Of a DNA stretch of 64,000 nt, positions 5,439 through 60,500 are shown piece by piece. The position numbers and the translations under genes are program-made. A model generated the notes under the pieces. That model searched no databases and had not been told where the DNA came from. It saw nothing but the letters and a program-made list of their open reading frames with translations. Each line of letters begins with the position of its first letter. Position 1 is the first letter of the stretch. The DNA lies in assembly GCA_016745035.1 (NCBI GenBank), contig JADGDE010000012.1, forward strand, positions 62,171 to 126,170. Reading direction: 5' to 3'. This stretch comes from Thiotrichales bacterium (GTDB lineage: Bacteria; Pseudomonadota; Gammaproteobacteria; Beggiatoales; Beggiatoaceae).

Positions 5439-5548
5439 AACTAAAAATTCGAATGGATAACGCGCCATTTCTTTTCGCATCAGTGTGCATAAATTAAATA
5501 AAGCAGGCAACATTACACAGCCTGTTTCTGGCACTTTTCCCTCTAAAG

Positions 5549-5600
5549 GTCTATGCGAAATATGAATAATCGGTCGCAAACCCACTATTTTGCTCTGTCC
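5549..5600 (+). repeat. Partial copy of dispersed TCTATGCG repeat
   Basis: About 45 bases starting TCTATGCGAAATATGAATAA match the left end of the inverted-repeat element at 23049-23209 with few differences. The match fades after about 5595 and no right terminus is seen, so this is a truncated or decayed copy. Confidence 0.6.
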
Positions 5601-5821: not shown

Positions 5822-7318
5822 ATGCCTTATCAAAAGCCCAGCTTTAAATCTCAATATGAAAACTATATCGGTGGACAGTGGGTTGCACCTGTTGATGGAC
5901 AATATTTTGATGCGATCTCGCCTGTCGATGGCAGTGTCATCACCAAAGTGCCACAATCCAACCATAAAGATATTGATGCAGCAGTCGCAGCAGCAAACAA
6001 AGCCGCAGAGACTTGGACAAAAACATCAATTACCGAACGCAGTAATTTATTATTCAAAATTGCCGACCGTATTGAACAAAACTTAGAAAACTTAGCGCTG
6101 GTTGAAACCTGGGATAATGGCAAAGCCGTTCGCGAAACCCTAGCTGCTGATTTGCCGTTGGCGGTGGATCATTTTCGCTATTTTGGCAGCGTGATTCGGG
6201 GTGAAGCCGGTGATATTAGTGATTTAGATGCCAATACCGTGACGATGGAAGTACACGAACCTTTGGGCGTGGTCGGGCAAATCATCCCGTGGAACTTCCC
6301 TATCTTAATGGCAACATGGAAAGTGGCTCCCGCGCTGGCGGCGGGTAACTGTGTTGTTCTCAAGCCTGCTGAGCAAACACCGGTCTCTATTTTATTTGTC
6401 ATCGAAGCGATTGCCGACTTATTACCCGCTGGGGTATTAAACGTGGTCAACGGTTTTGGTCCTGAAGCTGGTAAACCTTTAGCCACCCACCCTGACATCA
6501 AAAAAGTTGCCTTTACAGGCGAGACCACCACCGGGCGCTTGATCATGCAATATGCCTCGGAAAATATTATTCCTGTGACCTTGGAGCTGGGCGGCAAATC
6601 GCCGAATATTTTCTTCGATAGCGTCATGGCTGAGGATGATAATTTTCTTGATAAAGCCATCGAAGGCTTGGTTTTATTTGCTTTCAATCAAGGCGAGGTT
6701 TGCACCTGCCCATCGCGTGCCTTGGTTCAAGAGAGCATTTATGACGAATTTATGGAACGCTGCATTAAACGCATTGAAGCGATTAAAATGGGCGACCCAC
6801 TCGACAGCGATACCATGATGGGCGCACAAGCCTCTAATGACCAATATGAAAAAATTCTCAATTATATTGATATTGGTAAACAAGAAGGCGCAGAGCTTTT
6901 AACTGGTGGGGAAGCGTATAAAAATGACAGCCATCCTGAGGGCTATTATATCCAGCCTACGGTCTTCAAAGGTGATAACACCATGCGGATTTTCCAAGAA
7001 GAAATTTTTGGCCCGGTGTTAAGTGTCACCACCTTTAAAGATGAAGCCGAAGCTTTAGCGATTGCTAACGATACTTTATATGGCTTGGGTGCAGGCGTGT
7101 GGACACGCGATGTCCATCAAATGCAAACTTTTGCCCGTGGCATTGAAGCCGGGCGGATTTGGTGTAATTGCTATCACGCTTATCCCGCTAACGCCTCTTT
7201 TGGTGGTTACAAAAAATCCGGTATCGGGCGCGAAACCCATAAGATGATGCTAAACCATTATCGTCATACCAAAAACATCCTCATGTCTTATGACAAAAAT
7301 CCCTTAGGCTTTTTCTAA
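5822..7318 (+). CDS. NAD-dependent aldehyde dehydrogenase (AldB/ExaC type)
   Basis: Oxidises aldehydes, probably acetaldehyde or another short-chain aldehyde, to the acid with NAD(P). The 498 residues match the family length. Visible motifs are 'PWNFPI' (about 160), '[11 protein letters not shown]' and 'LELGGKSPN' (cofactor binding and catalytic Glu), '[11 protein letters not shown]' with the catalytic Cys near residue 297-299, 'EEIFGPV', and the C-terminal '[15 protein letters not shown]'. The 'GEVCTCPSR' and '[16 protein letters not shown]' segments are typical of the AldB/ExaC subgroup of alcohol-oxidising bacteria. A strong ribosome-binding site sits 6-13 bases before the ATG. A DUF779 gene follows, a pairing known for this subgroup. 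Confidence 0.95.
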
Positions 7319-26352: not shown

Positions 26353-27321
26353 CTACAAGGTTGCCGGGTCATAATTGGTTTGTTTGAGCCAATCTAAATA
26401 AGTCTGAACGCCCTGTTCTACGGTTTTAAACGGCTTATCATAGCCAACAGCGCGCAAGGCACTGATATTAGCCTCGGTGAAACTTTGATAACAGCCCTTT
26501 AAGTGATCAGGGAAGTCAATATAATTGAGCTTACCGCCTTTGTGCCAATCTAACACCGAATTGGCGACATCATTAAACGTCTGACTGCGCCCAGTGCCAA
26601 CATTAAAAATCCCGGATTTATCAGGATTATCTAAAAACCACAGATTGACATCGACCGCATCTTGCACGTAGATAAAGTCTCGACGTTGCTCACCGTTACC
26701 ATAACCATCATAACCCTCAAATAAATTGACCTCGCCTTTATCGAGCATTTGGTTATGGCAATGAAACGCCACGCTAGCCATCGTGCCCTTATGCTGCTCA
26801 CGTGGACCATAGACATTAAAATAGCGAAAGCCAACAATTTGACTGGAATTTTGCCCTAGACAACGGCGCACATTTTGATCAAATTGGAATTTAGAATAGC
26901 CGTACATATTCAAGGGCGCTTCGTATTGCAAATCTTCCTCAAATACATGTCCACTGCCATATACCGAGGCGCTGGAAGCGTAAATAAAGGGAATACGGCG
27001 ATTGCGGCAAAAGTTTAGCAAAATTTTAGAATATTCATAATTATTTTGCATAATATAATGTCCATCCCACTCAGTGGTGCTCGAACAAGCGCCTAAGTGA
27101 AAAATGGCGCGAACATTACTGGCAAAATACTCGTTGTTTTTGACTTGCTGTAAAAACTCACGTTTGTCGATGTAGTCCATGATTTGGCAATCGACTAAGT
27201 TTCTAAATTTCTTGCCATTTTCAAGGTTATCCACAGCAATAATGTCGGTTTCGCCGCGTAAATTAAGCGATTTGACCAAATTACTACCGATAAAGCCCGC
27301 AGCCCCGGTGACGATAATCAT
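26353..27321 (-). CDS. hldD: ADP-L-glycero-D-manno-heptose 6-epimerase
   Basis: Last step of ADP-heptose synthesis for the lipopolysaccharide inner core. Short-chain dehydrogenase/extended type: '[19 protein letters not shown]' NADP site at the N-terminus, '[12 protein letters not shown]', 'YASSASVYG' with the catalytic Ser, 'YGYSKFQFD' with the YxxxK pair, and '[19 protein letters not shown]', the HldD signature. Length 322 matches the family. A CAGGAG ribosome-binding site precedes the ATG. Monocistronic by position. Confidence 0.96.
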
Positions 27322-27429: not shown

Positions 27430-27565
27430 ACTGATGTTAGGCACTAAACCTATTTTTATCTCAAAATGGTGGTTTTCCACCTGTCTCGTGGGATTTAGCC
27501 GTGGAGCAATGGCGTTTTTTTACCTTTTGGGATAAAAAAGAAGCCTTTGCTTATACACCTGATTA
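27430..27565 (-). mobile_element. MITE-like element, decayed reverse copy
   Basis: ACTGATGTTAGGCACTAAACC at the left and GAAGCCTTTGCTTATACACCTGAT-like sequence at the right match the reverse complement of the 134-bp family with many changes. The GGTGGTTTTCCACCTG and GGAGCAATGGCG interior blocks are kept. It lies in the promoter region of the alanine-dehydrogenase-like gene, 57 bases before its start. Confidence 0.65.
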
Positions 27566-27621: not shown

Positions 27622-28779
27622 ATGAATATCGGTATATTAAAAGAACAAAAAACAGATGAAAATCGCGTTGCACTTACCCCCACGCAAGTAGCGGTTTTAA
27701 CTGCCAATAGGCATCGAGTTTATATTGAGAAACAAGCGGGTAAACAATCAAACTATACCGATGCTGATTATCAGCAAGCAGGTGGTATGGTCGTGTCTAA
27801 AGCAGAAGTGTTAAAGCAAGGGGAATTACTACTCAAAGTTAAATGTCCTTTGCTATCTGAATATCAAGATTACCAGCAGCAACATACCTTGTTTAGCTAT
27901 TTACATTTTGATGAAAATATTAGCGTCGATCATATCCAAGCCTTAACTCAATCAGGTTTTTTGGGTATTGCTTATGAATGGGTAGAAGAGCAAGGGCGTT
28001 ACCCCTTGTTAGAGCCAATGAGTCAAATCACGGGCTATTTGTTTTACCAACGCGCCAAAGAGCTGTGTACCCAATACAAGGGGATTTTGTGCCCGCAATT
28101 TGATGACTTGGGTAACGCTGGCGCGAATCTATTGATTATCGGTATTGGCACGATTGGCACGCAGGTGTTGCGCTCAGCACTCACCGATAAATTAAATTTA
28201 TTTATTGTTGATAAACACCCAGAGCGCGTTAAGGATAAAATCACAGCGATGGGCTTTACTGTGCCCGAAAACTTAGAGTTCATTAGGTTTGAGCAAGATA
28301 ACCCCACCGCGACTAAAAAAGCCCTCAAGGCTGTGATGCCCAAATTGGATATGCTTATCAATTGTGCTGTGCGTCGTCCTAATTTGCCCAAGTCTATCTT
28401 AGATTATTTAGTCGATGCCGAAATGGTGCAAAGCATGGCAGCCAATAGCGTGGTTTGTGATGCCACAGCCTGCGATAAAGACTTGATTGAAACCTGTGTT
28501 TCTAGCGAACACTTGACAGAGATTAAGGTTGTTGATCAAGTGATTCATTATAATCCTGACCATATCCCGTCTTTGACCGGACAAAGTTCCACAGAAAAAC
28601 TCACCGAAGCGACCTTTCCTTATATTGAACTGATGGCAAATCAAGGTATTCACCAAGCGATTAAAACCAATGCCGCGTTAGCCAAAGGGGTCAGTTGTTA
28701 TCAAGGCAAGCTGACCCATGCTTATACAACGCAAAAAAAACAATTGCCTCATCACCCTATTTTAGATTTGCTGGCTTAA
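27622..28779 (+). CDS. Alanine dehydrogenase/lysine-ketoglutarate reductase-like enzyme (AlaDH/PNT superfamily)
   Basis: 385 residues from ATG 27622; an upstream in-frame start at 27547 lies in a MITE remnant and is rejected. The AlaDH/PNT N-terminal domain opens with 'IGILKEQKTDENRVALTPTQ'. The Rossmann site is 'LLIIGIGTIGTQVLRSA' (about 170). The C-terminal 'DHIPSLTGQSSTEKLTEATFPYIELM' combines the 'DHLPSL' of lysine-forming saccharopine dehydrogenases with the 'ATLPY' of alanine dehydrogenase. The substrate is therefore open: alanine, or lysine + 2-oxoglutarate. The presence of a Lys9-type saccharopine dehydrogenase two genes downstream favours a saccharopine-type opine reaction (inference). 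First gene of a tight operon. Confidence 0.75.
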   Translation: MNIGILKEQKTDENRVALTPTQVAVLTANRHRVYIEKQAGKQSNYTDADYQQAGGMVVSKAEVLKQGELLLKVKCPLLSEYQDYQQQHTLFSYLHFDENISVDHIQALTQSGFLGIAYEWVEEQGRYPLLEPMSQITGYLFYQRAKELCTQYKGILCPQFDDLGNAGANLLIIGIGTIGTQVLRSALTDKLNLFIVDKHPERVKDKITAMGFTVPENLEFIRFEQDNPTATKKALKAVMPKLDMLINCAVRRPNLPKSILDYLVDAEMVQSMAANSVVCDATACDKDLIETCVSSEHLTEIKVVDQVIHYNPDHIPSLTGQSSTEKLTEATFPYIELMANQGIHQAIKTNAALAKGVSCYQGKLTHAYTTQKKQLPHHPILDLLA

Positions 28780-28792
28780 GGAGGAATAGGCG

Positions 28793-30832
28793 ATGTTAAT
28801 TGAATTGGGGATTTTGTTTGGTGTTTATGGCACGATGGCGGCTAAACGCAAGCAAAGTAAAAAAAAGCGGCGGCTTAAAAAGCGCAAAAACCAAAGCCGT
28901 TTGGAAAAAAAGGATAATGATTTAATCAAACATGCCCCCAGTGCTTTAGAGTTAAAAAATAACCGTTATTTGCGCTTTAGTGGTATATCGGTGGTGCTCT
29001 CTGGCGTGGCGATCATGAGCACGCCAGCGCTAAGCTTACTATCGGTGGGAATGCTGGGCATTTTAAGCTATCAGCGCTTTATTGGCGGCTTTAGCAAATT
29101 ACTCAAAGACAAACGCATTAGCAATGATTTGGTGATTTTTATTGGGATTGTGTTAGGGGTCGTTACCGCGCAATATTTCGCCCTGAGCTTGGGCATGTGT
29201 TTGTATTACTTTGCCAAAAAAATCCAATCCAAAACCCGCGCCCATGCTGAGCGAGAAATCTTTGAATTATTCGATAATAAGCCCCGCTTAGCTTGGCTCT
29301 TACAAGCAGATGGTGGCGAGCTAGAAGTCGCAGTCGATGAATTACAAATCGGCGATGTGATCGTGATTAACGCGGGCGAAGTGATTCCCGTTGATGCCCT
29401 GATTACCAAAGGCGAGGGCATGGTGGATCAAAGCATTTTAACTGGAGAAGCCAAACCGGTTGAAAAAGTCGCCGATGATGTGATTTTAGCCTCAACCATT
29501 TTGCTGGCGGGCAAGCTCCACGCCCAAGTCGAAAAAACCGGGACTGAAACCATCATTGCCAATATTGGCAAAATCCTCAACAGCTCGATTGAATTTAAAA
29601 CCGATGTGCAATCCAAATCCGAAGTATGGGCAGAACAAGCAGCCGTGCCATTTTTGCTCATGGGCGGGATGGCGTTCCCGTGGCTGGGCATTGGCGCGGC
29701 AACCGTGATTTTCCGCAGCACCTTCTCTGCCAGTATTGATTTGATTGCCTCGCTGGAAGTGTTGTCGCATTTACGCTTTGCTTATGGACATGGGATTTTT
29801 ATCAAAGATGGGCGCGCGCTTGAAAAGCTCCATGATGTCGATGCCATTTTGTTTGATAAAACCGGCACACTGACCACGGGTAGCTTTGAAGTCCATCGCC
29901 TGATTAGCTATAGCGATAGCCACAGTGAAAACGACATCTTAGGCTATGCAGCCATTGCTGAGAAAAAACTCAAACACCCGATTGCAACCGCGATTTTGAC
30001 CCACGCCCAAGCCTTGAACTTAAGCACCGACGCTTTTGCCGATGCAAACTACCAAATTGGCTATGGTGTCAGCCTGAATTTAGGCGATAAAATGATTCAA
30101 GTCGGCAGTGAACGCTTCATGCAAGCCAAAGACATTGACCTAGACACAGGCGTTGCCAACGATATGCACAGCGCCCATGATTTAGCCCACTCCTTTGTTT
30201 TGGTCGCCGTCGATGGGGAAATAGCGGGGGCAATCGAATTGCAAGCCAGCTTGCGCCCCGAAGCCCATCAGATTGTCAGCGATATTCACAAAATGGGCGG
30301 ACGCGAGAGCTATATTGTCTCTGGCGACCACAAACAAGCCACCGCGCAACTGGCGGACGAACTCGGCATTGATCATTATTACGCCGATGTCTTACCCGAG
30401 GACAAAGCTGACATCGTCGCGAAACTCCAAAAACAAGGCAAAACCGTCTGCTTTGTCGGCGACGGGGTCAATGACTCGATTGCCATGAGCCAAGCGGATG
30501 TGTCGATTTCCTTGCGTGGCGCGTCTTCAGTGGCAACCGATGTCTCCCAAGTCATTTTCATGGATGGCACTTTGGTCAACTTCACCCGCTTATTTGAACT
30601 CAGTGAACACCTGAATAAAAAACTACGTCGTGGGCTATTTTATACCATGACTCCCTCTGGGTTTAATATTGCCTCCGCCGTCTTCTTAAATACCAACTTA
30701 CTTGCGGCGATTATGGTCGATTATGGTTTCTTAATGACCGGACTACTCCAGACCATGCGCGAAAAGAAAGTTGAATTTATTGACCAGCAAGACCCAGACT
30801 CCCAAGCCCTGTCCCAACTAGAGGAAAAATAG
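28793..30832 (+). CDS. P1-like P-type ATPase lacking the metal-binding CPC motif
   Basis: 679 residues. The N-terminus is a hydrophobic helix and a strongly basic stretch (about 17-42), with no heavy-metal-associated domain. Then membrane helices, the actuator motif 'TGEA' (217-220), phosphorylation site 'DKTGT' (355-359), 'KHPIA' in the nucleotide domain (HP typical of P1B) and 'GDGVNDS'. Where copper/zinc pumps have CPC before the phosphorylation domain, this protein has 'RSTFSASID' (308-316), so its cargo cannot be inferred. The ribosome-binding site AAGGAGGA overlaps the upstream stop. A paralogue is encoded at 48815-50836. Flanked on both sides by amino-acid/opine dehydrogenases within 13 and 4 bases. 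Confidence 0.88.
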   Translation: MLIELGILFGVYGTMAAKRKQSKKKRRLKKRKNQSRLEKKDNDLIKHAPSALELKNNRYLRFSGISVVLSGVAIMSTPALSLLSVGMLGILSYQRFIGGFSKLLKDKRISNDLVIFIGIVLGVVTAQYFALSLGMCLYYFAKKIQSKTRAHAEREIFELFDNKPRLAWLLQADGGELEVAVDELQIGDVIVINAGEVIPVDALITKGEGMVDQSILTGEAKPVEKVADDVILASTILLAGKLHAQVEKTGTETIIANIGKILNSSIEFKTDVQSKSEVWAEQAAVPFLLMGGMAFPWLGIGAATVIFRSTFSASIDLIASLEVLSHLRFAYGHGIFIKDGRALEKLHDVDAILFDKTGTLTTGSFEVHRLISYSDSHSENDILGYAAIAEKKLKHPIATAILTHAQALNLSTDAFADANYQIGYGVSLNLGDKMIQVGSERFMQAKDIDLDTGVANDMHSAHDLAHSFVLVAVDGEIAGAIELQASLRPEAHQIVSDIHKMGGRESYIVSGDHKQATAQLADELGIDHYYADVLPEDKADIVAKLQKQGKTVCFVGDGVNDSIAMSQADVSISLRGASSVATDVSQVIFMDGTLVNFTRLFELSEHLNKKLRRGLFYTMTPSGFNIASAVFLNTNLLAAIMVDYGFLMTGLLQTMREKKVEFIDQQDPDSQALSQLEEK

Positions 30833-30836
30833 CCCG

Positions 30837-32159
30837 ATGAAAACTGTTGCCATTTTTGGTTCTGGCATGATGCCGCCGGCAATTATTGACTACTATAGCC
30901 ATAAATACCCCTGCCAAATCATTATCGCTACCATCGACCGTCCTCAAGCAGAAAAATTAATTGCAGGCAAGGAAAACTGTCAGATAGCTATGTGGTCGGC
31001 TGATGACCCCAATAGCATTGATGCGATTACCGCAAAAGCCGATTTGGTCGCAGCAATGATTCCTGAGCATGTGCTGCTACCCGTAGCAGAATCCTGTATC
31101 CGCACCGCAACCCCTATGGTCTATACCGCTTACAATGAAGTCAATATTCAAAAACTCTCAGAAAAAGCCCAAGAAAAAGGCATATTAATCCTCTCCGAAG
31201 TCGGCGAAGACCCAGGGCTAGATCATCTTTGCGCCATGAAAATTCTCGAAGACATTCGCGCCGAAAACGGCAAGGTATTGGAGGTAAAACAATGGGGGGC
31301 TGGGATTCCTGATCATGCCGACAACAACAACCCGATGGGCTATAAATTCTCTTGGTCACCCCCACGTTTATACGAAGCCCTACAAGCCAGCCCGACTTAT
31401 ACTGTCAACGGCGAGCAAATCTCATATCATAATGGCGAACAATACAAACACTTCAAATTAGTCGATACCCTTTGGGGCACATTTGAATCGGTGGCTCACC
31501 GTACGGTTATGCCTTATTTCGATGCCTATCAACTGCCAAAAAATATCTCCTATATACGCGGTTTATTGCGACACCATGGCTACTGCAATACCGTCAACGC
31601 CTACTTAAAATTAGGTCTATTAAATTCTAAACAACCATTCGATTACCAAGGCAAAAGCTGCCGAGAGATTACCGCCAGTTTGATTGATGCTGAGCCTGAA
31701 AACCTAGAACAAGCCATGGCTGATTTTCTTGAAATGAAAACTTATGATGACATCATGCATCGCCTCAAATGGTTAGGTTTATTTAAAGATAGCCCCGCCC
31801 CGATTGAACAAGGCACACCGGCGCAATACCTATTAGCGCTACAAAGTCGCCGGATGATGTATGCAGAGCATGAGTCTGACATTACCTTAATCCTAGCGCG
31901 CATCACCGTAGAATTGGCAAACGGGCAACGGGTATTAAAAGAAGGGCGTTTGCGCGTAGCAGGTATCCCCGGCGGTTTCTCCGCCATGAGCCGTGCTGTC
32001 GGCTATTCCGTCGGTGTGGCAGGGCGAAAAATTTTGGAAGGCAAAGTGCCGCAAACCGGCTGTTTGATGCTGCCAGAACTCCCGGATTTATGCCACCTGA
32101 TGCGCGATGAAATGGCGCAATATCAATTTAAGTTTGATTATGAGACCTTTGAACAATAG
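30837..32159 (+). CDS. Saccharopine dehydrogenase, Lys9/SDH type
   Basis: 440 residues. N-terminal NADP-binding 'VAIFGSGMMPPAIIDYYSHK'; core 'LSEVGEDPGLDHLCAMKIL' and 'NNPMGYKFSWSPPRLYEAL', which match the glutamate-forming saccharopine dehydrogenases (yeast Lys9 and the C-terminal half of animal/plant LKR/SDH); also 'YIRGLLRHHGYCNTV' and 'AMSRAVGYSVGVAGRKILEG'. Known reaction: saccharopine to 2-aminoadipate-6-semialdehyde and glutamate (or the reverse). It begins four bases after the ATPase stop, so the three genes are almost certainly one transcript. It ends convergent with a zinc dehydrogenase. Confidence 0.88.
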   Translation: MKTVAIFGSGMMPPAIIDYYSHKYPCQIIIATIDRPQAEKLIAGKENCQIAMWSADDPNSIDAITAKADLVAAMIPEHVLLPVAESCIRTATPMVYTAYNEVNIQKLSEKAQEKGILILSEVGEDPGLDHLCAMKILEDIRAENGKVLEVKQWGAGIPDHADNNNPMGYKFSWSPPRLYEALQASPTYTVNGEQISYHNGEQYKHFKLVDTLWGTFESVAHRTVMPYFDAYQLPKNISYIRGLLRHHGYCNTVNAYLKLGLLNSKQPFDYQGKSCREITASLIDAEPENLEQAMADFLEMKTYDDIMHRLKWLGLFKDSPAPIEQGTPAQYLLALQSRRMMYAEHESDITLILARITVELANGQRVLKEGRLRVAGIPGGFSAMSRAVGYSVGVAGRKILEGKVPQTGCLMLPELPDLCHLMRDEMAQYQFKFDYETFEQ

Positions 32160-32192: not shown

Positions 32193-33149
32193 TTAAGGCG
32201 TTAATAGCACTTTCATTGCTGCCGCTTGTCTAGCCTGTGCAAAAGCGGCTAAACCTTGGCTTAAGGGATAGCTTGCGCGAATCAAAGGGCGTGGGTCAAT
32301 ACGCCCCTCGGCGAGCAGACGCAGCGCGGGGGTGAAATCACCACAGCGCGAGCCTATCAAGCTGATTTCATTGACCACAATGCGGGATAAATCGACCTCA
32401 GGGCTACCCTTATAGGTGCTTTTGAGGATAATCTTGCCGCGTGGGCGCACACAATCGAGGGCAAGCGCTAAACCGCTGGGATTGCCTGTGGCTTCAATGA
32501 CAATATCAAAGCGCTGTCTTTGAGCAGCTTGTTCGTTTATCCAATCGATACTTTGAGCACTGAGCAAAGCTTGTTGCTCAGGGTAACGCGCCACTACTTG
32601 CACTTGCGCGGGCGTTTGTTTGAGGCACAAGGCAATCAGTTGCCCCAAGCGCCCTGCGCCAATCAGTAAAACCTTATCCTGAGGACGTAAGGGGGTTTGC
32701 TCGACAATTGCCAGTGCAGCGGCCAAAGGCTCGGTAAACACCGCCATCTCTGCTGTTACCGACTCTGGCACGCGGTATAAATTGGCTAAGGGTAAACACA
32801 AATAATCGGCAAACGCGCCATCATGATTAAGAATGCCTAAAACTTCACGGTTATCACAATGCGTCGGGCGGGCGGCTTGGCAATTAGGACATTGCCCACA
32901 ACTGATATTAATTGCACCGACGACACGCTCGCCTATCCGTTCTGGAGCATTCGGGGCTTCTTCGATTTCACCGTAGAACTCATGCCCTAAAATACCGCTA
33001 AAGGGGTAGTAACCTTGAATTAAGGCTAAATCCGTGGCGCAAATGCCGGCAAGATGAACTTTAACGCGGGCTTCATGGGGCTTAGGGATTGGAGAGGCTA
33101 AATTGCTACGATAGTGCAATTGTTTATCTTGAAGATATAAGCCTTGCAT
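32193..33149 (-). CDS. Zinc-dependent medium-chain alcohol dehydrogenase
   Basis: 318 residues. Catalytic zinc: Cys37 ('AGICATD') and His54-Glu55 ('LGHEF'). Structural zinc: four cysteines at 82, 85, 88 and 96 ('SCGQCPNCQAARPTHC'). The cofactor site 'VLLIGAGRLGQLIALCL' is followed by 'EATGNPSGLALALD'. It is shorter than typical alcohol dehydrogenases (about 340-370) and resembles the compact sorbitol/threonine-dehydrogenase side of the family. Substrate unknown. No purine-rich ribosome-binding site is seen. Downstream of erpA on the same strand but separated by a hairpin. Confidence 0.88.
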   Translation of the reverse strand: MQGLYLQDKQLHYRSNLASPIPKPHEARVKVHLAGICATDLALIQGYYPFSGILGHEFYGEIEEAPNAPERIGERVVGAINISCGQCPNCQAARPTHCDNREVLGILNHDGAFADYLCLPLANLYRVPESVTAEMAVFTEPLAAALAIVEQTPLRPQDKVLLIGAGRLGQLIALCLKQTPAQVQVVARYPEQQALLSAQSIDWINEQAAQRQRFDIVIEATGNPSGLALALDCVRPRGKIILKSTYKGSPEVDLSRIVVNEISLIGSRCGDFTPALRLLAEGRIDPRPLIRASYPLSQGLAAFAQARQAAAMKVLLTP

Positions 33150-47606: not shown

Positions 47607-48290
47607 TTAGCTTATGTTTTCGATTTGTCCATGCCAGCACCACTTATTGGGGTTAAGTAAAGTCGTTAAACTTTGGTCATAATATTCTTGCCATGCCTGC
47701 TGTTCACTGATGCTAGCTAACGAAGCTAAACTTGCTTCTAATGTCATGACAGCCTCATAAATTTGTGCGGGAATATGGACATGAAAATGACGCTCTAAAC
47801 CCTGCCAAGCACCACTGTCAGTACGGATAACTAACATCCCTTGATAAGGGCTTAATTCATCCTCATCGGGTTCAGCAAAGTCCCTACGTGTTGCAAGCTT
47901 CTGATTGGGAAAAGGGGTTTTGGCGATCACAGCATTAAATGCTTTTATCGCCGTTTGTAATTTATCTGAGTCAAAATCTAAAATAGAGAATTGCACTTCA
48001 ACATGTGGCCAGTCTAGTTGAACAAGCTGCATATCTTTTTTACGATCCCAGCTCGCTATGCGTAATAATGGCGCTAAGTAACCGATTTCATCATCACCGC
48101 TGGCATCGGTATATAGTGTGATTGTTCGCATAGGGACAGTATCGAAGCGATGCAGCCTTATGGCGATAGTTTTTTCCAAATAGCGGGTATCGCCATTATT
48201 TGGATAGATAATCTCTGCACCATCTAATAAGGCGTTGCCTAATCTTAAAATTTTACGTTTATCAATTGGCATTGCTATTATAAATTTCAC
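47607..48290 (-). CDS. Unknown protein at the end of the bfd-ATPase operon
   Basis: Up to 227 residues, not recognised. GTG 48290 or ATG 48272 could be the start; the first overlaps the deaminase gene by 29 bases, the second by 11. Alternating hydrophobic and polar residues suggest a beta-rich fold, with 'LHRFDTVPMRTITLYTDASG' and 'YQGMLVIRTDSGAWQGLERH'. No signal peptide, Cys or membrane helix. Its position after the deaminase and ATPase genes implies cotranscription. Confidence 0.7.
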   Translation of the reverse strand: MKFIIAMPIDKRKILRLGNALLDGAEIIYPNNGDTRYLEKTIAIRLHRFDTVPMRTITLYTDASGDDEIGYLAPLLRIASWDRKKDMQLVQLDWPHVEVQFSILDFDSDKLQTAIKAFNAVIAKTPFPNQKLATRRDFAEPDEDELSPYQGMLVIRTDSGAWQGLERHFHVHIPAQIYEAVMTLEASLASLASISEQQAWQEYYDQSLTTLLNPNKWCWHGQIENIS

Positions 48291-48822
48291 CGCCGTGCTG
48301 TTGATAGCTTTTAAGTACTTGCACCGCCGCCTCTCTTTGCATGGCGTTTATTACCCGAATACCCCGTTGCTCTAAAGCTTGTTGCCAATTGGGGAGTTTA
48401 TCGCCCTCATCAAACCCAATCGCACGGACATCCGCATCAGCCGCTGCACAAACTAACTCGCTAATACCTGACCACGGCAACGCGCCAAAACACATGCTGC
48501 ACGGCTCGGCGCTACAGACCAAGCGATGCCCGCGCAAGTCATATGTGCCCAGTTGTTGCTGGGCGAGACTAATTGCCAACATTTCCGCATGTAAAATCGA
48601 TAAACCCGTGCTGGGGACTAAATTCACCCCCAGCGCCACCAGTGCATGGTTGTCTTGTTGAAACACACCCGCAGCAAAAGGACCACCTGTACCCATGTCA
48701 ATATTTTTGCTTGCAGCTTGAATCACAAAGCGCATTTGTGCCTCGATGTCGGCACAGGCTTGATAGTTTTTTTCAAACAGTGTGAGCCATGTTGGCAAAG
48801 GAATATTGAGGTTATCAACCAT
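48262..48822 (-). CDS. Zinc-dependent nucleoside/cytidine-type deaminase
   Basis: 186 residues of the cytidine-deaminase-like superfamily. Zinc and catalytic residues: His78-Ala-Glu80 ('[10 protein letters not shown]') and 'EPCSMC' with Cys108 and Cys111. The longer N-terminus (about 75 residues before HAE) and '[20 protein letters not shown]' resemble guanine-deaminase/tRNA-adenosine-deaminase relatives rather than dCMP deaminase. The substrate is open. It overlaps the ATPase gene by eight bases and is followed by an overlapping unknown gene. Confidence 0.85.
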
Positions 48823-50836
48823 ATGCTGCTTCGCTGTCTAAACTCAAGGCTTTTGGCTCTAATTCGTTGGACTGTTGCGCATGAACCAACCCTAAACTAA
48901 ACACGCTGATAAAGACCAAAGAGGAGGGCAGCAATCCCCATTGTAATAGGCTTACAGCGCCGACATTCGCTGTGCCATAGCCCGCCCAAAATAATAAGGT
49001 GTTTTTCAACCGGTTATCGAGTTGTTTAGAAAGCCGTATTAACTCGGGTAAGTGGCGCAAATGCGCATCCATCAATACCACTTGAGCAACATCGGTGGCA
49101 ATGGTGCTCGCACCAGCCAAAGAAATGGCAACATCGGCTTGTTTCATTGCCAAGCTGTCGTTAATGCCATCGCCGACAAAAGCCACCCGATGTCCTTGAG
49201 CTTGATATTCGCGGACTAAATCGGCTTTTTCTTGTGGCAGGACTTCATAATGGACTTTATCTAAGCCCAGTTGCGTGCCTAGGGTTTCGCAAGCTTGCTG
49301 ATGGTCGCCGGAGACCATGATCAGTTTTTTCACCCCTTGCTCACGTAAGTGCAGCAAGACTTGTGCGGCTTCGCTACGTACTTGCGGGTGAATTTCAATT
49401 GCGCCTTGCAATTGTTTATCGATGGCTAAAAATAACAGCGCATAGCCTTTTTGCTCGGCACGCTGCGCATGTTGTTGAATTGCCGGGTTATCAATGCTGA
49501 TCTGTGACATCGCCATAAAGCGCGCATTCCCCAAACGAATATGCTGCCCTTGGTAATCAGCACTGATACCACTGCCGACATCATAACGCCGATTCATCAA
49601 CGGTAATTCGTTTAAACCCCGGTGTTCAGCCGCTTGTTTCAAAGCTTTGGCAATTGGGTGTTGTAAGCGCCCTTCAATGGCGCTGGCGTATTGCAACACA
49701 CTGTCCGTATCGAGCTTGCCGCAACGGATGATCTCTCCGACTTCAGATTGGTTTTTAGTCAATGTCCCGGTTTTATCAAATAAAATCACATCAATATCTT
49801 GCAAGCTCTCTAAGGCGCGCCCGTCCTTAATCAATACCCCATGCGCGGCAATTTGCTGCAAATGTTGATAGGTTTGCAAGGAACTCATGACCCGAATGCT
49901 ATTGGTTGGGGCGCTGAATAACAAAGCGGTGGCAGATGCCAATCCCCAAGTTGGAATCAAGGCGGCGCTGGTTGCCAATAAGGGCAGAGCAATTTTATTT
50001 GACCATGCTTCACCCAAGAGTTGTCTTTGGGTTTTAAAATCGGTGCTGCTGGCTAAAATACTTGCCAATTGGGCAGCGTTAGTGTCTTTCCCGGCGTGTT
50101 CGACTTGAATTTGTACCGTACCCGCCAGCACCACGGTGGCGGCAAATACCGGATCACCGATACTTTTTTCCACCGCTAGAGACTCGCCTGTGAGCGCTTG
50201 CTGATCAACGCTGGCTGCGCCTTGATGTACCCGTCCATCAACGGGAATGGTTTCACCGGTGCGAATAATAATCATATCGCCCGCCACCAAGTCCTCTAAA
50301 GCAACTTCCATTTCAGCTTGCCCTGTCACCCGCCATACCAAGGTGTTTTGTTGGTTAAAGACTTCGCTGATGACTTGGTGGGAAAGGTTTTTACTGCGAT
50401 TGACCTGTTTACTGGCGAAATGATACACCCAAGCTTGCAGGGCGAGCACTGAATATTGCCCCAGACCTAAACTGGTAATACACACGGCACTGGTGAGCAA
50501 GTCATTGCCGATTTGTTTGTCTTGGCGCAGCCCATATTCGGCTCGCTTAGCAATTGGCAAACTGATATATGTGCCGAGGGCAAAATTTAATGGGCTAACA
50601 AAGGGAAAAGCAAAACCGACTACCGACAAACCCATCGCTCCGGTTGAGAGCAATAATTGCTGGTCAGTGTATTTATTACTCTCGACCATTGCGGTTTCAT
50701 TGTTCACTTCAGGATTATCCACCGCCTTATCAACCCGGGCTTGCGAGAGGTGAATCAGGGGTTTTTTCTTGTAAGATTCCCACAAGCGCAAGCCGCCATA
50801 AATACCAGCATAGAGACCAAGATTAAGTAATAACAT
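48815..50836 (-). CDS. P1-like P-type ATPase lacking CPC motif (second paralogue)
   Basis: 673 residues. N-terminal hydrophobic helix and a charged linker, no metal-binding HMA domain. Actuator 'TGES' (216-219), phosphorylation 'DKTGT' (354-358), 'QHPIA' in the nucleotide domain, and '[14 protein letters not shown]'. The metal-site position reads '[11 protein letters not shown]' (306-316), so the two Cys of CPC are Ala and Thr. Same overall plan and size as the ATPase at 28793-30832, which marks them as paralogues. Upstream are bfd-like and ybaN-like genes (65-base gap); downstream, overlapping, a deaminase. Confidence 0.88.
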
Positions 50837-51566: not shown

Positions 51567-54500
51567 TTACATACTCGATTGCGTTGTCGTCGAGGATGAA
51601 GCTTGGAATTGATAGGAGGAGAAATCATCCCAGTTCAAAGCCAAGGGTTTTTCAAAGGCTCGATGTAATGCTTGAATCATCTTAATCGGCGAGTGCGCCA
51701 TCACCGTTTGTACTGACACGGGCGTGGAGACAAATAACTGACTGGTGATCGCCGGGGTGAAATAGGTGCGCATGTCATAGACGCTCATTTCATCCTGATT
51801 ATACAAAGCTACTTGCTGTTTGATTTGAATCGAGTGTGGGGCTTTCCACAAAATGGTATTCGGGAACGAGGCAAGCCAGTTGCCGCCAGTATCCGCCATC
51901 ACTGTTTGCGTGCCGACTTCCGAGCCATGATCATCAAACATGATCACGGTCATGGTTGTTCCTGGGGCAACCGAGCCACTAAAGACCGGTGAAATCGGCA
52001 GCGGTGGCAAATCAAACTGAATATCGCCATTCGGCCAATAAAAGCCATATTGCTCGTTTTTGGCTTTTTTCAGATCGGTACTGCTGACAAAGCCTCTGTC
52101 TTGTTCAACGGTGTTGAACACAAAACGGCTATCAATGCGCTCGATTTCGGGGGTGATGTTAATCCCTGAAATATTCGAGGGCGGAATTTCACCCTCAGGG
52201 GTTTGTCCTTCACCGTCTGGCGTTTGCCCCTCGTCGTCGGGTGTTTGTTCTCCGGTATCTGGCGTTTGCCCTTCGGTTTCGCCATCCGTGTCTTGGTCGC
52301 CTTCATCGTCCGCTACGGGAATAATCCGATTATCATCCGCGTCGGTATTGTCTTCAAGACGGCTGTCATTGCCTTGTTTATCGGTGACGCTGACTAAATT
52401 GCTAAAGCTGTCGGCATTGGCATCGGCTTTTACCTCTGCTTTAACGATCAAGATTTTGCTTTGATTAACCGCGAGGCTGTCCAAAGTCCAAGTAATGCGT
52501 TCACCATTGACCACGCCGCCATCGCTGACTGAGATAATCTCCAAGATATCGGCGGGGAATTTATCAATAACCCGCACATCGTGACCACTTGCTTGACCAT
52601 GATTGCTAACACTGATTTGATAAGTCAGTTGTTGCCCTGGACGAACCTTGTCTACGCCATCATCTTTGCTGACTTGATAATCCGGCTTGCCTGTTGGTTC
52701 TAGCTCTGGTTTTGGTTCAATCGACTCTGGGGTTAAGCGAAAATCGAAGTCGTCTCGTACTTCATCCTTGCCTAAATTAAACTGTTGCTGTTTATCACTT
52801 TGCAACTGATACCCCTCAGGCAAGGTATCGCTGTCTAAATCAAGTCGATACTCACCTTGGGTCAAACGCACAAATTCATAGCGCCCTTGGTTGTCAGTTT
52901 CGGTCGTTTGAATTACATCATCATCGGTATCAAATAGCCCATCTTCACCGGCTTCGGTTAAGGTTAGACGGATGCCATGACTGCCGAGATTGTCTTCGTT
53001 TTGTAGCCCATCCAAGTTGTCATCTTTCCAAACCAAATCGCCGATGCGCCCTTGTGAGGACAAGCTTTCAAGGGCAAAATCCATTTCATGGTTTTGCTCA
53101 TTGCTACCCAAGTGCAAGCTTAATTCGGTGGTGTTGGCTTGTAAGCTTGGCGGAATGCTATCGCTGTCGATTTGGATACGGTAATCAGCTTCGGGCAAGT
53201 TATCAAAACGATAATGCCCTTGGCTATCGGTGACGGTGATTTTTTGAATATCATCCGCTGTGCCTTCGATACCATCATCTCCGGCACTGCTTAAGGTCAC
53301 AGTGACATCGCTGATACCCAGCTCATCGCTATCTTGCACGCCATCACCATCAGCATCGAACCAAACTAAATCGCCAATTTGTCCTTGCGTGGCACTCAAA
53401 CCAAAATCAATGTTATCTAAACGCTCATCACTTTGTAAGTTGATGATTTGTTCGCTGGCAGTGGTGATCAGTAAATCCGAGACCACCGAGACTTGATACT
53501 TACCAGCAATCAAATCATTGAATTGATATAAGCCTTGTGCGTCGGTGCGCATTTGCTCGCTGACATCATCGCTGCTGCCCAAAATGCCATCACTGCCCGC
53601 GTAACGTAATTGCACTAAAACCCCAGCTTGTCCTTGCTCGTCTGCGTCTTGCACGCCGTCGGCATCGCTATCAAACCAGACTCGGTCGCCAATGCTGGAT
53701 AAACTGCTAAGTCCAAAATCCATATCAAGATTGCTCTCGCCTGCTTGCAGGTTTAGAGTCTGTTTCTCTGGCGTGGTCAGGCTTTGCTGGGTGTCAATTT
53801 CAACCGAATATAAACCCTCTGGCAAGGCATCAAAACGGTATTGCCCCTTGCTATCCGTTTGAGTTTGTTGCAATACGTCATCATCTGTACCGAGCACGCC
53901 ATCGCTGCCAGCGGCGCGTAAATTGACGCTGACACCTGCTGCGCCTTGCTCGCCTGCCTCTTGTAGCCCGTTGCCATTGCTATCAAACCACACGTGATCG
54001 CCAATACTGCCTAAGGCAGGGAGAAGGCCAAAGTCAGCTTTGTTGTAATCCTCACCCATACCTAACTGGGTGACGATATTATCCGCGGTGCTTAAGGTCT
54101 CCGTCGTGTCGATAGTGACCCGATAATTATCGGGGCTTAAATGCTCAAAGCGATACAAGCCAAGGCTGTCGGTTGTGGTTTCTTTGAACACATCATCGGC
54201 TGTGTCTAAAATTCCATCAGCGCCCGCCGCTTGCAAATTCACCTTAACCCCGGCAACCCCCTGCTCGTCATCATCTTGCTGCCCATCGGCATCTGAATCT
54301 AGCCAGACCCGATCGCCAATACTGCCTGCGTCAATGAGACCAAAATCAGCATCGAGCCTGTCTTTACCCTCTGCCAGCGTCAGATTAAATTGCTGCGGGG
54401 TACTAAAGTCTTGGTTTGCCATACTGCTGAGATAAACAATGTAATCGCTTGCGGGTAACTGCGCAAATTGATAAACGCCGTTACTATCGGTTTTTGTGCT

Positions 54501-57500
54501 CGCAATCAGATCATCGGCTGTACCCAATACGCCATCCTTGCCCGCACCACGGAGATTGACCGTGATTGCCTCTACGCCGGTTTCATTCGCATCTTCAATA
54601 CCATCGGCATTGCTATCAAACCAAACTTTATCACCAATGCGATGGGGTTGAGTTAGCCCAAAATCAGCGCTATCAATCGGTGTTGCGGTTAAATCCAAAT
54701 CATACTGCGCTGGCGTGGTCAGCATTTGATTTGCCTCAGGGGCAATCGTGACTTGATACTGACCGCTACTTAAGTTTTCAAACTGATAATGCCCTTGGGC
54801 ATCCGTCACCGTGCTAGAGAGCACATCATCAGCGCTATTGAGTACGCCATCCTTGCCAGCGGCGCGCAGTGTCACTGTCACCCCTGCAATACCGGATTCG
54901 TTCGCATCTTGCTGTCCGTCGGCATCGCTATCGAGCCAGACAAAGTCGCCAATCGTGCTATTCACCAGCCCAAAATCGAGATCTTGGCGCTGCTCACCAT
55001 TGGCTAAAACAAGTTGAGTATCTTGGTTTTGCGTGCTTAGATTCAACGGTGTTGGCAGGCTGTTGCTATCTAAGTGCAGTTGATAAGTGCCTGCGCTTAA
55101 ACCTGCAAATTGATACTGCCCTTGAGCATCGGTTACGGTGCTAGAGAGCACATCATCGGCGGTATTGAGCACGCCATCGTTGCCAGCATCGCGTAATATA
55201 ACCGTTACCCCAGCAATGCCGGACTCGTTCGCATCTTGCTGCCCGTCGGCATCGCTATCGAGCCAAACAAAATCACCAATAGCTCCAGTGGGCTGCGCTA
55301 AACCAAAATCTATATCAAGCCGTTCGCTATTCGTGGCTAAATCCAGCTCAAACATATTTTTAGCACTGCTAATGCTGACCCCCGAAGGCAGCGTACTGGC
55401 AACCAAACTGACTTGATACGTCCCTGAGGGCAAATTATCAAAACGGTATTGCCCTTGTGCATCCGTTGTTGTGGTTTGCTGGCTATCGTCCGCCGTGCCA
55501 AATACGCCATCAGCACCGGCAAAGTCTAGCTGTACAGCAATATTTTCTGCGCCAGATTCGCCCGCATATTGCAGCCCATCGGCATTGCTATCGAGCCAAA
55601 CCGTATCACCAATTGCAGAAGTAAGCGCCGTTGTTGCGATACCAAAATCAGCATCCAGATATTGCTCGCCCGCGCTCAAATCCAAAGCATGTAAGGCATT
55701 CGTGGTCAGGTTTTGACCTGTCGCCAAATTTTGCGGATCGATACTGATCTGATGCGAGCCTGTGCTTAGCCCATCAAACTGATATAGCCCATTGCTATCG
55801 GTCGTCGTTGTTATTTGGATGTTGTCTGCGCTGGTATTAAAATCGCCATCTGCACCAGCGCCGAGCAAGGTCACATTTAGCCCCGCAACCGCATCTAGTT
55901 CACTGGCATCTTGAACACCATCTTGATTGCTATCAAACCAAACCCGATCACCAATACTGCCAGAGGCGCTGGTATTAAAACCAAAATCACCATCATCGCG
56001 TTGTTGCCCTGCGCTTAAACTCATATCAGTTTTGCCAGCGGTTTGACTTAAGCCTTGTAAAGCGCTGCTATTGGCATCAACCGTGAGCTTAAATTCACCA
56101 GCGGGCAAATGCTCAAACAAATACTTACCGGAGCTATCAGTTGTGGTGCTAAAGACAATATTGTCATCCAGCGTATTAAAGTCATTATCAAAGCCCGCCC
56201 AAGTCAACTCTACAGGCACGCCAGCAATGCCTGATTCGGTGCTATCTTGCAGCCCATCGGCATTCTCATCTAACCAAACCAAATTACCCAAACTGCCTGT
56301 GCCGCGATAACCAAAATCAACCGTATCAATGCTGGTGTCAGCAGGTAATTCCACCCGCAAAGAGCGATGATTGCCCAAGTTGGGCGTGGTCAATTCCATC
56401 GCAAAGGGTAAAGAATTTTCATCCACTTGGACAAAGAAACTGCCAGCAGATAATTTATCAAATTGATATAAACCATTAGCATCAGTTGTTTGCGTTGGTG
56501 TAGATGTGCCAATCAGATTCAATTTCACATTAGGAATCACAGGCTCACCAGCATCTTTAATCCCATCACCATTGGTGTCATACCAAACCAAATCACCGAT
56601 GTCGCTATTGGTGGTCGATTTCGGGGGAGCATAACCAAAATCAGCCAAGGTATAGTTTTGCCCCGCAGTCAAGGTTGTGACATGTATATCACCCCCTGTG
56701 GTCACCTTCATATTAATCGGCGGAATGACCTCAACAATATATTTTCCAGGATTTAGCTCACTAAATTCATACGCCCCGTTAACCGTGCTTGTATCGCCAA
56801 CTTTGGTATCACCGGCATCTAATACACCATCATTATTCTGATCTAAATACAAGTTCACGCTGACACCATCTAAACCGGATTCAGTCGCATCTTTAAACCC
56901 ATTATGGTTAGAATCCAACCAAACCAAATCCCCTATGCGGGTATTTAATTTAAGACCAATATCAATGTCCGTCTCATTATCATTAGCTGCTACCGTAATC
57001 GTATCGGTTTTGCCTGTGCTGCTATCAACATCACTATCAATGGTATCGGCAACGCTATCTTTGCTGGTAAACAACTGACCTGCGGGTTTAATGACCTGAA
57101 TGTAGTAATCCCCTGGAGCAATATTGTTGAAGTTATACAAGCCACCGCCTGAGGTAGTGGTGGTTTTAACTAGACTATCGTCAACGGCTTTGCGTAATTC
57201 AACCGTGACATTATCAACGCCATCTTCGCCTGCGTCTTGTTCGCCATCGCCGTCGCTGTCTTGCCAGACTTTATCGCCGAGGCTGTTGTTGTATTTGAGA
57301 CCGGCATCAACGCTGGTATTGCTGGTATCGCCTGCCATGGTCACAGCAGTGGTTTTGCCCGTGGTGGTATCGACATCGCTATCTTTGCTGTCATCGGCAA
57401 TGTTGTCTTTACTGGTGAAGCTGGTGTCAGCGGGTTTAGTGACGCGTACCACGTAGTCTGCGGGTTTGAGGTTGGTGAAACTGTAATCACCATCGCCTGA

Positions 57501-60500
57501 GGTGGTGTCGGTTTTGATGACTGTTGTGCCGGTGCTGTCCATCAATTCGACGGTTACGCCGTTGAGTCCGACCTCAGAAGCACCTTGTTCGCCATCACCG
57601 TCGGCATCGTACCAAACTTTATCGCCAAGGCTGTTGGCATAGGTCAAGCCGGCATCAATATCGCTGCGTAGTTGTCCGGCAGTTAGGGTCACGGCTGCCG
57701 TGCGGCTAGTGGCGTTATCAAAGTCGCTGTCTTTGTCGGTATCAGCGCCTGCACCTTGGGTAGTGAGGCTTGCACCGGTGGGCTTGGTGACTTCGACGAT
57801 GTAATCACCGGCTGCCAAGCCTTCAAATTGGTATTCGCCGTTGACATCGGTGACTTGGGTATCTTTTAAGGTCGTGCCTAAGCTGTCATAGAGTTTGACC
57901 GTGACACCTTGAATCGGTAATTCGCCGCCATCTTGGATGCCGTCGGCATTGGCATCGTGCCAAACCAAGTTACTGATACCGGCGTATTTTATCCCGGCAT
58001 CAATGCTGTTATCAGTCGTGCCTGCTGCTACCGTTATCGCTGCGGTTTTACCTGTCGTGGTGTCAACATCGCTATCTTTGGCATCATCGCTACCGGCATT
58101 TTGGGGGCTGATAAGCGTGCCTGTGGGCGCAGTCACTTGAACGATGTAATCACCCGGTTTGAGGTTGGTGAAGCTGTATAAGCCATTGCTATCAGTGTTA
58201 GTTGTGGCGATTTCAGTTGTGCCGTTACTGGCAAGCAGTTTCACCGTGACGTTTTCAATCCCGTCTTCGCCCGGGTCTTGAATCCCGTCTTGATTCAGGT
58301 CTTGCCAAATCAAGTTGCCAAGGCTGTTGTCGTATTTGAGGCCAGCATCGAGGTTGGTGATGGTATCGCCATCGTTGACACTGAAGGCAGCGGTTTCGCC
58401 GCTGGTGGTATTAGCATCGCTGTCTTTGGCATCATCAGCAATGTTGTCTTGTGTGGTGAAACTGGTGTCCGTGGGTTTAACAAACTTGAGGCGATAGGTA
58501 TCGGCGGGGACATTATCAAATTGATATAAGCCGCCGCTTGCGGTGATTTCGGTCGCAACCACACTGTTATCACTGTTTTTAAGCAGTTGGACAGTCACCC
58601 CATCAATGCCTTCTTCAGTACCATCTTGTTCGCCATCCCCATCTGCGTCATACCAAACTTTGTCGCCGATTTGGGTGTCAAACAATAGCCCGGCATCGTA
58701 GTCGTTGCTGCTGGTATTCGCCGCTACGGTGATGGTGTCGGTTTTGCCGGAAGTGCTATCGACATCGCTGTCAATGGTATCGGCAACACTGTCTTTGCTG
58801 GTAAAGGTATTGCCTGTCGGGGCGGTGACTTGGATGTAGTAGTCCCCAGGCGCAATATTGCTGAAGTTGTATAAGCCCCCACCTGCGGTGGTGGTGGTTT
58901 TAACCAAGCTATTATCATCGGCTTTACGCAACTCGACTTTGACATTATCAACGCCCGCTTCACTGCCGTCTTGTTCACCATCACCATCGGTGTCTTGCCA
59001 GACTTTGTCGCCGAGACTGTTATTGTATTTGAGACCGGCATCAACACTGCTGTCGGTGGTATCACCTGCCATGGTCACGGCAGCGGTTTTGCCCGTGCTG
59101 GTATCGACATCGCTGTCTTTGCTGTCATCGGCAATGTTGTCTTTGCTGGTGAAGCTGGTGTCGGCGGGTTTAGTTATCCGTACCACGTAGTCTGCGGGTT
59201 TGAGGTTGGTGAAGCTGTAATCACCATCGCCTGAGGTGGTGTCGGTTTTGATGACGGTGGTGCCAGTGCTGTCCATCAAATCAACAGTCACGCCGTTAAG
59301 TCCTACCTCAGAAGCATTTTGTTCGCCATCACCGTCGGCATCGTACCAAACTTTGTCGCCAAGGCTGTTGGCGTAGGTCAAGCCCGCATCTATGTCGGTG
59401 CGTAGTTGTCCGGCGGTTAGGGTCACGGCTGCCGTGCGGCTAGTGGCGTTATCAAAGTCGCTGTCTTTGCTGCTATCAGCGCCTGCACCTTGAGTGGTGA
59501 GGCTAGCGCCTGTGGGCTTAATGATTTCGACAATGTAATCACCGGCTGCCAAGCCTTCAAATTGGTATTCGCCGTTGACATCGGTGACTTGGGTATCTTT
59601 TAAGGTTGTGCCTAAGCTGTCATAGAGTTTGACCGTTACGCCTTGAATCGGTAGTTCACCCGCATCTTGAATCCCATCAGCATTGGCATCGTGCCAAACC
59701 AAGTTGCTAATCCCTGCGTATTTTATCCCGGCATCAATGCTGTCATCTGTGGTGCCTGCTGCTACCGTTATTGCGGCGGTTTTACCTGTCGTGGTGTCAA
59801 CATCGCTGTCTTTGGCATCATCGCTACCGGCATTTTGGGGGCTGATAAGCGTGCCTGTGGGCGCAGTGACTTGAACGATGTAATCACCCGGTTTGAGGTT
59901 GGTGAAGCTGTACAAGCCATCGCTATCGGTGTTAGTTGTGGCGATTTCAGTTGTGCCGTTACTGGCAAGTAGTTTCACCGTGACGTTTTCAATCCCGTCT
60001 TCGCCCGTATCTTGGATGCCATCTTGATTCAGGTCTTCCCAGACTAAGTTACCAAGGCTGTTGTCGTATTTGAGGCCAGCATCGAGGTGAGTAATGGTAT
60101 CGCCATCACTGACGCTGAAGGCAGCGGTTTCGCCGCTGGTGGTATTAGCATCGCTGTCTTTTGCATCATCAGCAATGTTGTCTTGTGTGGTGAAACTGGT
60201 GTCCGTGGGTTTGACGAACTTGAGGCGATAGGTATCGGCTGGGACATTATCAAATTGATAACTGCCATCATTAGCAGTCGTCGTGGTCGCAACCACGCTA
60301 CCATCGCTGTTTTTAAGCAGTTGTACCGTAACATCTTTAATGCCCTCTTCAGTGGCATCTTGTTCGCCATCACCATCAGCGTCATACCAAATTTTGTCGC
60401 CGATTTGGGTGTCAAACAATAGACCGGCATCATAGTCGTTGCTGCTGGTATTCGCCGCTACGGTGATGGTGTCGGTTTTGCCGGAAGTGCTATCGACATC

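Follow-up and report, generated by a model that had tools for sequence, protein, structure and literature searches.

A Beggiatoaceae operon with a CPx-less P-type ATPase gene between two dehydrogenase genes, possibly a make-and-export unit

Layout of the three-gene operon

In a 64,000-nucleotide stretch of a Beggiatoaceae contig (hereafter the window), the gene of a P1B-like P-type ATPase without a recognisable metal motif was found between the genes of an alanine dehydrogenase (AlaDH)-like enzyme and a saccharopine dehydrogenase. Our tentative reading is that this is a dedicated make-and-export operon, in which the ATPase may export an amino-acid product of the neighbouring enzymes. The initial annotation, which had placed saccharopine-like chemistry around an ion-pump-like ATPase, was as a whole partly supported.

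ORF calls and direct reading of the letters confirmed three genes on the forward strand. They encode an AlaDH/PNT-fold dehydrogenase of 385 aa (enzyme 1; 27622..28779; assigned by Pfam, alignment and structure model), the P1B-like P-type ATPase of 679 aa (28793..30832; Pfam, NCBIfam and motifs) and a Lys9-type saccharopine dehydrogenase of the L-glutamate-forming type, 440 aa (SDH; 30837..32159; Pfam and PDB matches). The Pfam domains were AlaDh_PNT_N/C in enzyme 1, E1-E2_ATPase and HAD hydrolase in the ATPase, and Sacchrp_dh_NADP/C in the SDH. Between the genes lie 13 bp and 4 bp, as previously annotated, and a possible alternative TTG start of enzyme 1 lies upstream at 27547. Ribosome-binding sites had been described inside the end of each preceding gene. 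This holds for gene 3, with a possible weak site (AGAGGA, 30820..30825) within the end of gene 2, but the Shine-Dalgarno sequence of gene 2 (GGAGG, 28780..28784, direct reading) lies in the gap, abutting the TAA stop of gene 1 and 8 bases 5' of the ATG. A heptose epimerase gene upstream (26353-27321) and a zinc ADH gene downstream (32193-33149) are both on the opposite strand, so the operon consists of exactly three genes. The earlier statement that no described system has this layout agrees with the literature searched, in which we found none; likewise, we found no report there that links a P-type ATPase with EgtD or with a saccharopine operon.

An ATPase clade that lacks the CPx motif

The window ATPase contains DKTGT, TGE and GDGVND, the motifs expected of a P-type ATPase, and passes the NCBIfam P1B subfamily model TIGR01525 (390 versus a cut-off of 346 bits). 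Its N-terminus consists of a short hydrophobic and Lys/Arg-rich segment, and no HMA domain was found in it by Pfam search. Membrane topology was taken from hydropathy, the structure prediction, made with 3 sequences, having reached a pLDDT of 44. The fourth membrane segment (M4), FRSTFSASIDLIASLE, has no CPx. The description of the protein as cysteine-less was inexact, since two cysteines are present (136 and 553), but M4 indeed contains no CPx, SPC or TPC, and none of these motifs occurred in M4 in any of the 96 clade members fetched, a few of which are fragments. The clade is concentrated in Beggiatoaceae: homologues (E<=1e-90) were detected in 34 of 43 genomes of the family, where a single genome can contain as many as 20, compared with 6 of about 365 genomes from other Gammaproteobacteria. 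The 43 genomes, taken to be Beggiatoaceae, represent 25 genera, which matches the number of GTDB genera that PMC11172852 reports for this family.

Mean column entropy across the clade was 2.15 bits in the M4 core and 2.2-2.5 bits in the other membrane segments, versus 0.58 bits around DKTGT. One M4 column is R or K in 75 of 92 members; the window ATPase has D316 there, plus R308. The CPx site is invariant in metal pumps, and its absence from the clade makes it unlikely, judged from sequence, that these proteins are standard metal pumps. The likeness to P1B heavy-metal ATPases such as CopA, ZntA and CtpC lies in the A, P and N domains and in TIGR01525, whereas the missing CPx and HMA domain, the variable M4 and the biosynthetic partner genes set the window ATPase apart. 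CtpC of M. tuberculosis retains CPC and a zinc role (PMC9374683). A second ATPase of the same clade, also CPC-less and 36% identical, is encoded outside the operon on the reverse strand (48815..50836), and a cytidine/guanine-deaminase-like gene downstream of it on the same strand (48262-48822) overlaps it by 8 bp.

Clade ATPases are frequently coupled to small-molecule enzymes

We surveyed the genes next to clade ATPases in 80 fetched regions and further loci, using simple ORF calls. Upstream neighbours were co-directional in 75 of 86 cases. The co-directional partners within 100 bp, as identified by Pfam, included NRPSs, O-methyltransferases, EgtD-type histidine methyltransferases and an NNMT-type methyltransferase; amino-acid decarboxylases, glutamine-synthetase-like ligases and TPP enzymes; and sulfotransferases, TauD, a type II thioesterase and an APH kinase. 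By our own classification, small-molecule enzymes made up 30 of 57 coupled neighbours versus 0 of 17 arbitrary coupled genes from the same genomes (Fisher ~7e-5), a comparison in which we chose the neighbour classes after seeing the data, the genomes are related and the control set is small. The count was 27 of 54 when the window operon and its closest counterpart were excluded, and about half of the coupled neighbours are not small-molecule enzymes. Proximity, counted by hand from coordinates among the matches listed, gave a listed ATPase within 4 kb of 6 of 16 PF10017 (EgtD-like) genes (p=7.6e-6) and 8 of 31 PF00891 (O-methyltransferase) genes (p=1.1e-5), each versus 2 of about 150 PIN genes.

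Partner type also followed the ATPase tree, with 13 changes versus a mean of 18.4 and a minimum of 15 in shuffled data (0/500 shuffles), and O-methyltransferase, NRPS, EgtD and sulfotransferase partners arise in separate ATPase clades. In 2 of 7 loci inspected outside Beggiatoaceae, the ATPase gene is immediately preceded or overlapped by an EgtD-family gene, and this EgtD-ATPase pairing in other gammaproteobacterial families provides the cleanest independent replication. A true EgtB (582.9 versus a cut-off of 360) and EgtD are encoded 3' of the ATPase gene in one Beggiatoaceae genome. The recurrent position of the clade beside small-molecule genes suggests a metabolite, and not a metal, as the possible export cargo of the window pump. 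The earlier idea of an amino acid that is pumped fits the statistical tie of the clade to amino-acid and small-molecule biosynthesis genes, from which we infer export.

Several loci were observed in addition. In two non-Beggiatoaceae gammaproteobacteria (L178:147-3366 and L181:294-3399), an EgtD-family gene and a CPC-less ATPase gene form a compact two-gene unit. Amidinotransferase-like genes, a class V aminotransferase, an O-methyltransferase and a CPC-less ATPase occur in small Beggiatoaceae loci (L106, L113 and L107), which by appearance could encode a guanidino-compound pathway not yet described. In the window genome (L018:4780-7023), amidinotransferase-like and TauD/VioC-like hydroxylase genes adjoin a clade ATPase and its APH-kinase partner.

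An alternative that we consider unlikely is an ion or metal pump with non-cysteine ligands; its neighbours would then either produce a chelator or depend on the ion, and the gene pairing would reflect metal supply or metallophore traffic. Opine metallophore loci of the staphylopine/pseudopaline type resemble the operon in placing an opine-forming dehydrogenase beside a transporter; however, the CntM-type opine dehydrogenases belong to another family, and we know of no P-type ATPase exporter in such loci. The existence of opine metallophores (PMC7438024) is consistent with a metal pump, as are the P1B subfamily match and the fact that several partner families elsewhere are iron enzymes (TauD, EgtB). 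Against it stand the complete absence of CPx from the clade, the variable M4 core, the basic residue found at one M4 column in most members, the missing HMA domain and the many partners that need no metal, such as methyltransferases and sulfotransferases.

Conservation of the operon and of the enzyme pair

The full triple, in the same gene order, was also found in the MAG Thiotrichales BB31, which represents another genus of Beggiatoaceae. Protein identities between the window and BB31 are 69% for enzyme 1, 73% for the ATPase and 73% for the SDH. The genes flanking the BB31 operon are unrelated to those of the window; its second gap is 5 bp and its first at least 143 bp. The same order in a second genus shows that the operon is not a chance arrangement, and the ATPases of the window operon and of BB31 group as a separate clade in the ATPase tree (support 100). 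The earlier suggestion that the three families might be neighbours in other genomes thus held for BB31, but the triple was found in these two genera only, both of one family. Wide conservation was rejected: among 17 enzyme 1 loci outside the window genome, scanned in fetched flanks with short exact peptide patterns that can miss members, BB31 was the sole one with an SDH or a CPC-less ATPase adjoining. The genes neighbouring plasmid relatives of the ATPase and the SDH were uninformative.

The SDH matches the fungal and human enzymes along its full length (PDB 1e5l, E=2.1e-50) and by sequence resemblance retains the invariant residues of Magnaporthe Lys9 (G-DPG-DH, NP--YKFSWS and RG--R); an NCBIfam search gave no model match. 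It is rare, being present in 2 of 58 relatives searched, in no genome but that of the window in the gammaproteobacterial sample (369 genomes) and, among 390 genomes from the cyanobacterial class, in one. The last is a Spirulina MAG (SIO3F2), which encodes the closest SDH (62% identity) and AlaDH-like protein (53%) outside Beggiatoaceae on separate contigs. No ATPase of the CPx-less clade was found in this MAG, whose five P-type ATPase matches are distant (best 33% identity); the ATPase near its SDH (C46:41007) was rejected as a clade member at just 33%. The co-occurrence of enzyme 1 and the SDH indicates that the pair goes together in three genomes from two phyla, with the ATPase linked in two. 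The annotated pairing of an AlaDH/PNT-fold enzyme with a Lys9-type SDH is upheld to this extent, but most of the enzyme 1 family has no SDH nearby.

It is rather improbable, in our view, that the operon is an ordinary saccharopine-type lysine catabolic pair (LKR and SDH) into which a functionally unrelated or merely co-expressed ATPase gene was inserted. Such catabolism is known in bacteria, for example in Ruegeria (PMC4334477), and the Spirulina MAG has both enzymes without the clade ATPase. However, two genera whose proteins are about 70% identical share the gene order, their ATPases group together with full support, small-molecule enzymes are habitual partners of the clade, and no aminoadipate-semialdehyde dehydrogenase gene is in the operon. 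An aldehyde dehydrogenase gene elsewhere in the window (5822-7318) was considered for the oxidation of aminoadipate semialdehyde and rejected: from its sequence it looks like an acetaldehyde dehydrogenase with a DUF779 partner, and so provides no evidence for that step.

Of a second SDH copy, 38 C-terminal codons with 63% identity remain at 5445..5558 on the reverse strand, which indicates that the SDH was formerly duplicated here. This remnant is flanked by a type I restriction locus and the acetaldehyde-dehydrogenase-like gene.

Enzyme 1 has an AlaDH fold with an altered active site

Relatives of enzyme 1, with 40-69% identity, were found in rhizobia, Methylobacterium, Planctomycetota, KSB1 and Spirulina, and 18 sequences of the family were aligned. 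R15, K75 and H96 (AlaDH numbering) are retained in all 18. In the same 18 sequences, D270 is replaced by C or N, A299 by D and N300 by H. In its own numbering, enzyme 1 retains R15, K74 and H95 and has C284, D313 and H314 in place of D270, A299 and N300. In AlaDH, D270 is catalytic and essential and N300 binds the substrate; the PDB entry 2vhv is the structure of a D270A mutant. The D-H-I-P-S motif of enzyme 1 (DHIP in 18 of 18) matches SIDHLPS of yeast Lys1 and resembles SIDNLPA (D-N-L-P) of human LKR; at the level of sequence, the family has an LKR/Lys1-like pocket feature.

The AF2 model of enzyme 1 (pLDDT 94) is closest in fold to AlaDH (2vhx; Z 44.9, rmsd 2.0 A over 361 residues), followed by transhydrogenase (PNT; Z 36.1), the LKR of human AASS (29.0) and yeast Lys1 (27.0). 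Sequence matches gave the same ranking (AlaDH, E=1.6e-76, versus Lys1, E=3e-8). The LKR-like character claimed for enzyme 1 is found in its active-site residues, but by overall fold it is nearest to AlaDH. By the catalytic criteria of AlaDH itself, the replacement of D270 and N300 in all 18 members means that the family is not alanine dehydrogenase. A plain alanine dehydrogenase with unrelated neighbours is thus highly improbable despite the fold match, and enzyme 1 also misses the equivalog cut-off of TIGR00518 by far (193.6 versus 391.85 bits). Its likeness to bacterial Ald extends to fold, length and the three retained residues; the differences are the two lost residues, an identity of about 30% and membership of a distinct family.

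Among the relatives (L038:8994-11200 and L044:5732-7985), the AlaDH-like gene lies 3' of a DDAH/arginine-deiminase-like gene in Bradyrhizobium and adjoins peptide/opine-type ABC transporters in Methylobacterium and Mesorhizobium.

A possible make-and-export pathway

In the make-and-export operon that we tentatively propose, enzyme 1 would join an amino acid and a 2-oxo acid by an LKR/Lys1-like reductive amination. The SDH would act on the other C-N bond of a saccharopine-type opine to give glutamate and a semialdehyde, or in the reverse direction; with lysine, the semialdehyde would be 2-aminoadipate semialdehyde/piperideine-6-carboxylate. The ATPase encoded between both enzymes would export the resulting small amino-acid-like molecule. 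The broader idea, that the clade derives from P1B ATPases, lost the metal site and became metabolite exporters tuned via M4 to the product of the adjoining enzymes, here a saccharopine-type opine or semialdehyde, is more doubtful. We know of no P1B-type ATPase that moves an organic molecule. A precedent for organic cargo in a P-type ATPase is ATP13A2, a P5B ATPase and lysosomal polyamine exporter (PMC8564547), which differs in being of another P-type class, eukaryotic and without biosynthetic partner genes.

The enzyme pair shares with LKR/SDH (AASS) of animals and plants and with fungal Lys1/Lys9 the combination of an AlaDH/PNT-superfamily enzyme with a Lys9-type SDH, as well as the D-H/N-[LI]-P motif. 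It differs in that the genes are separate with an ATPase gene between them and that AlaDH is the nearer relative of enzyme 1 in both sequence and fold. The pair would be a bacterial, split relative of LKR/SDH. P1B ATPases are automatically annotated as heavy-metal pumps. Should the clade export small organic molecules, 'heavy metal translocating' would be the wrong annotation for many proteins of sulfur bacteria. The clade would then constitute a new class of exporters for specialised metabolites, with each pump marking a small biosynthetic locus that has gone unrecognised.

Two further features were observed in the window. Three near-identical short ORFs at 240-1006 (MSPLQGLI.FYII.LGRC...) reveal a repeated DNA unit, and the reverse strand at 51567-63923 encodes a protein of 4118 aa built from numerous SdrD-like repeats (GDKVWYDADGDGEQD...) that resemble one another and each contain a putative calcium-type motif.
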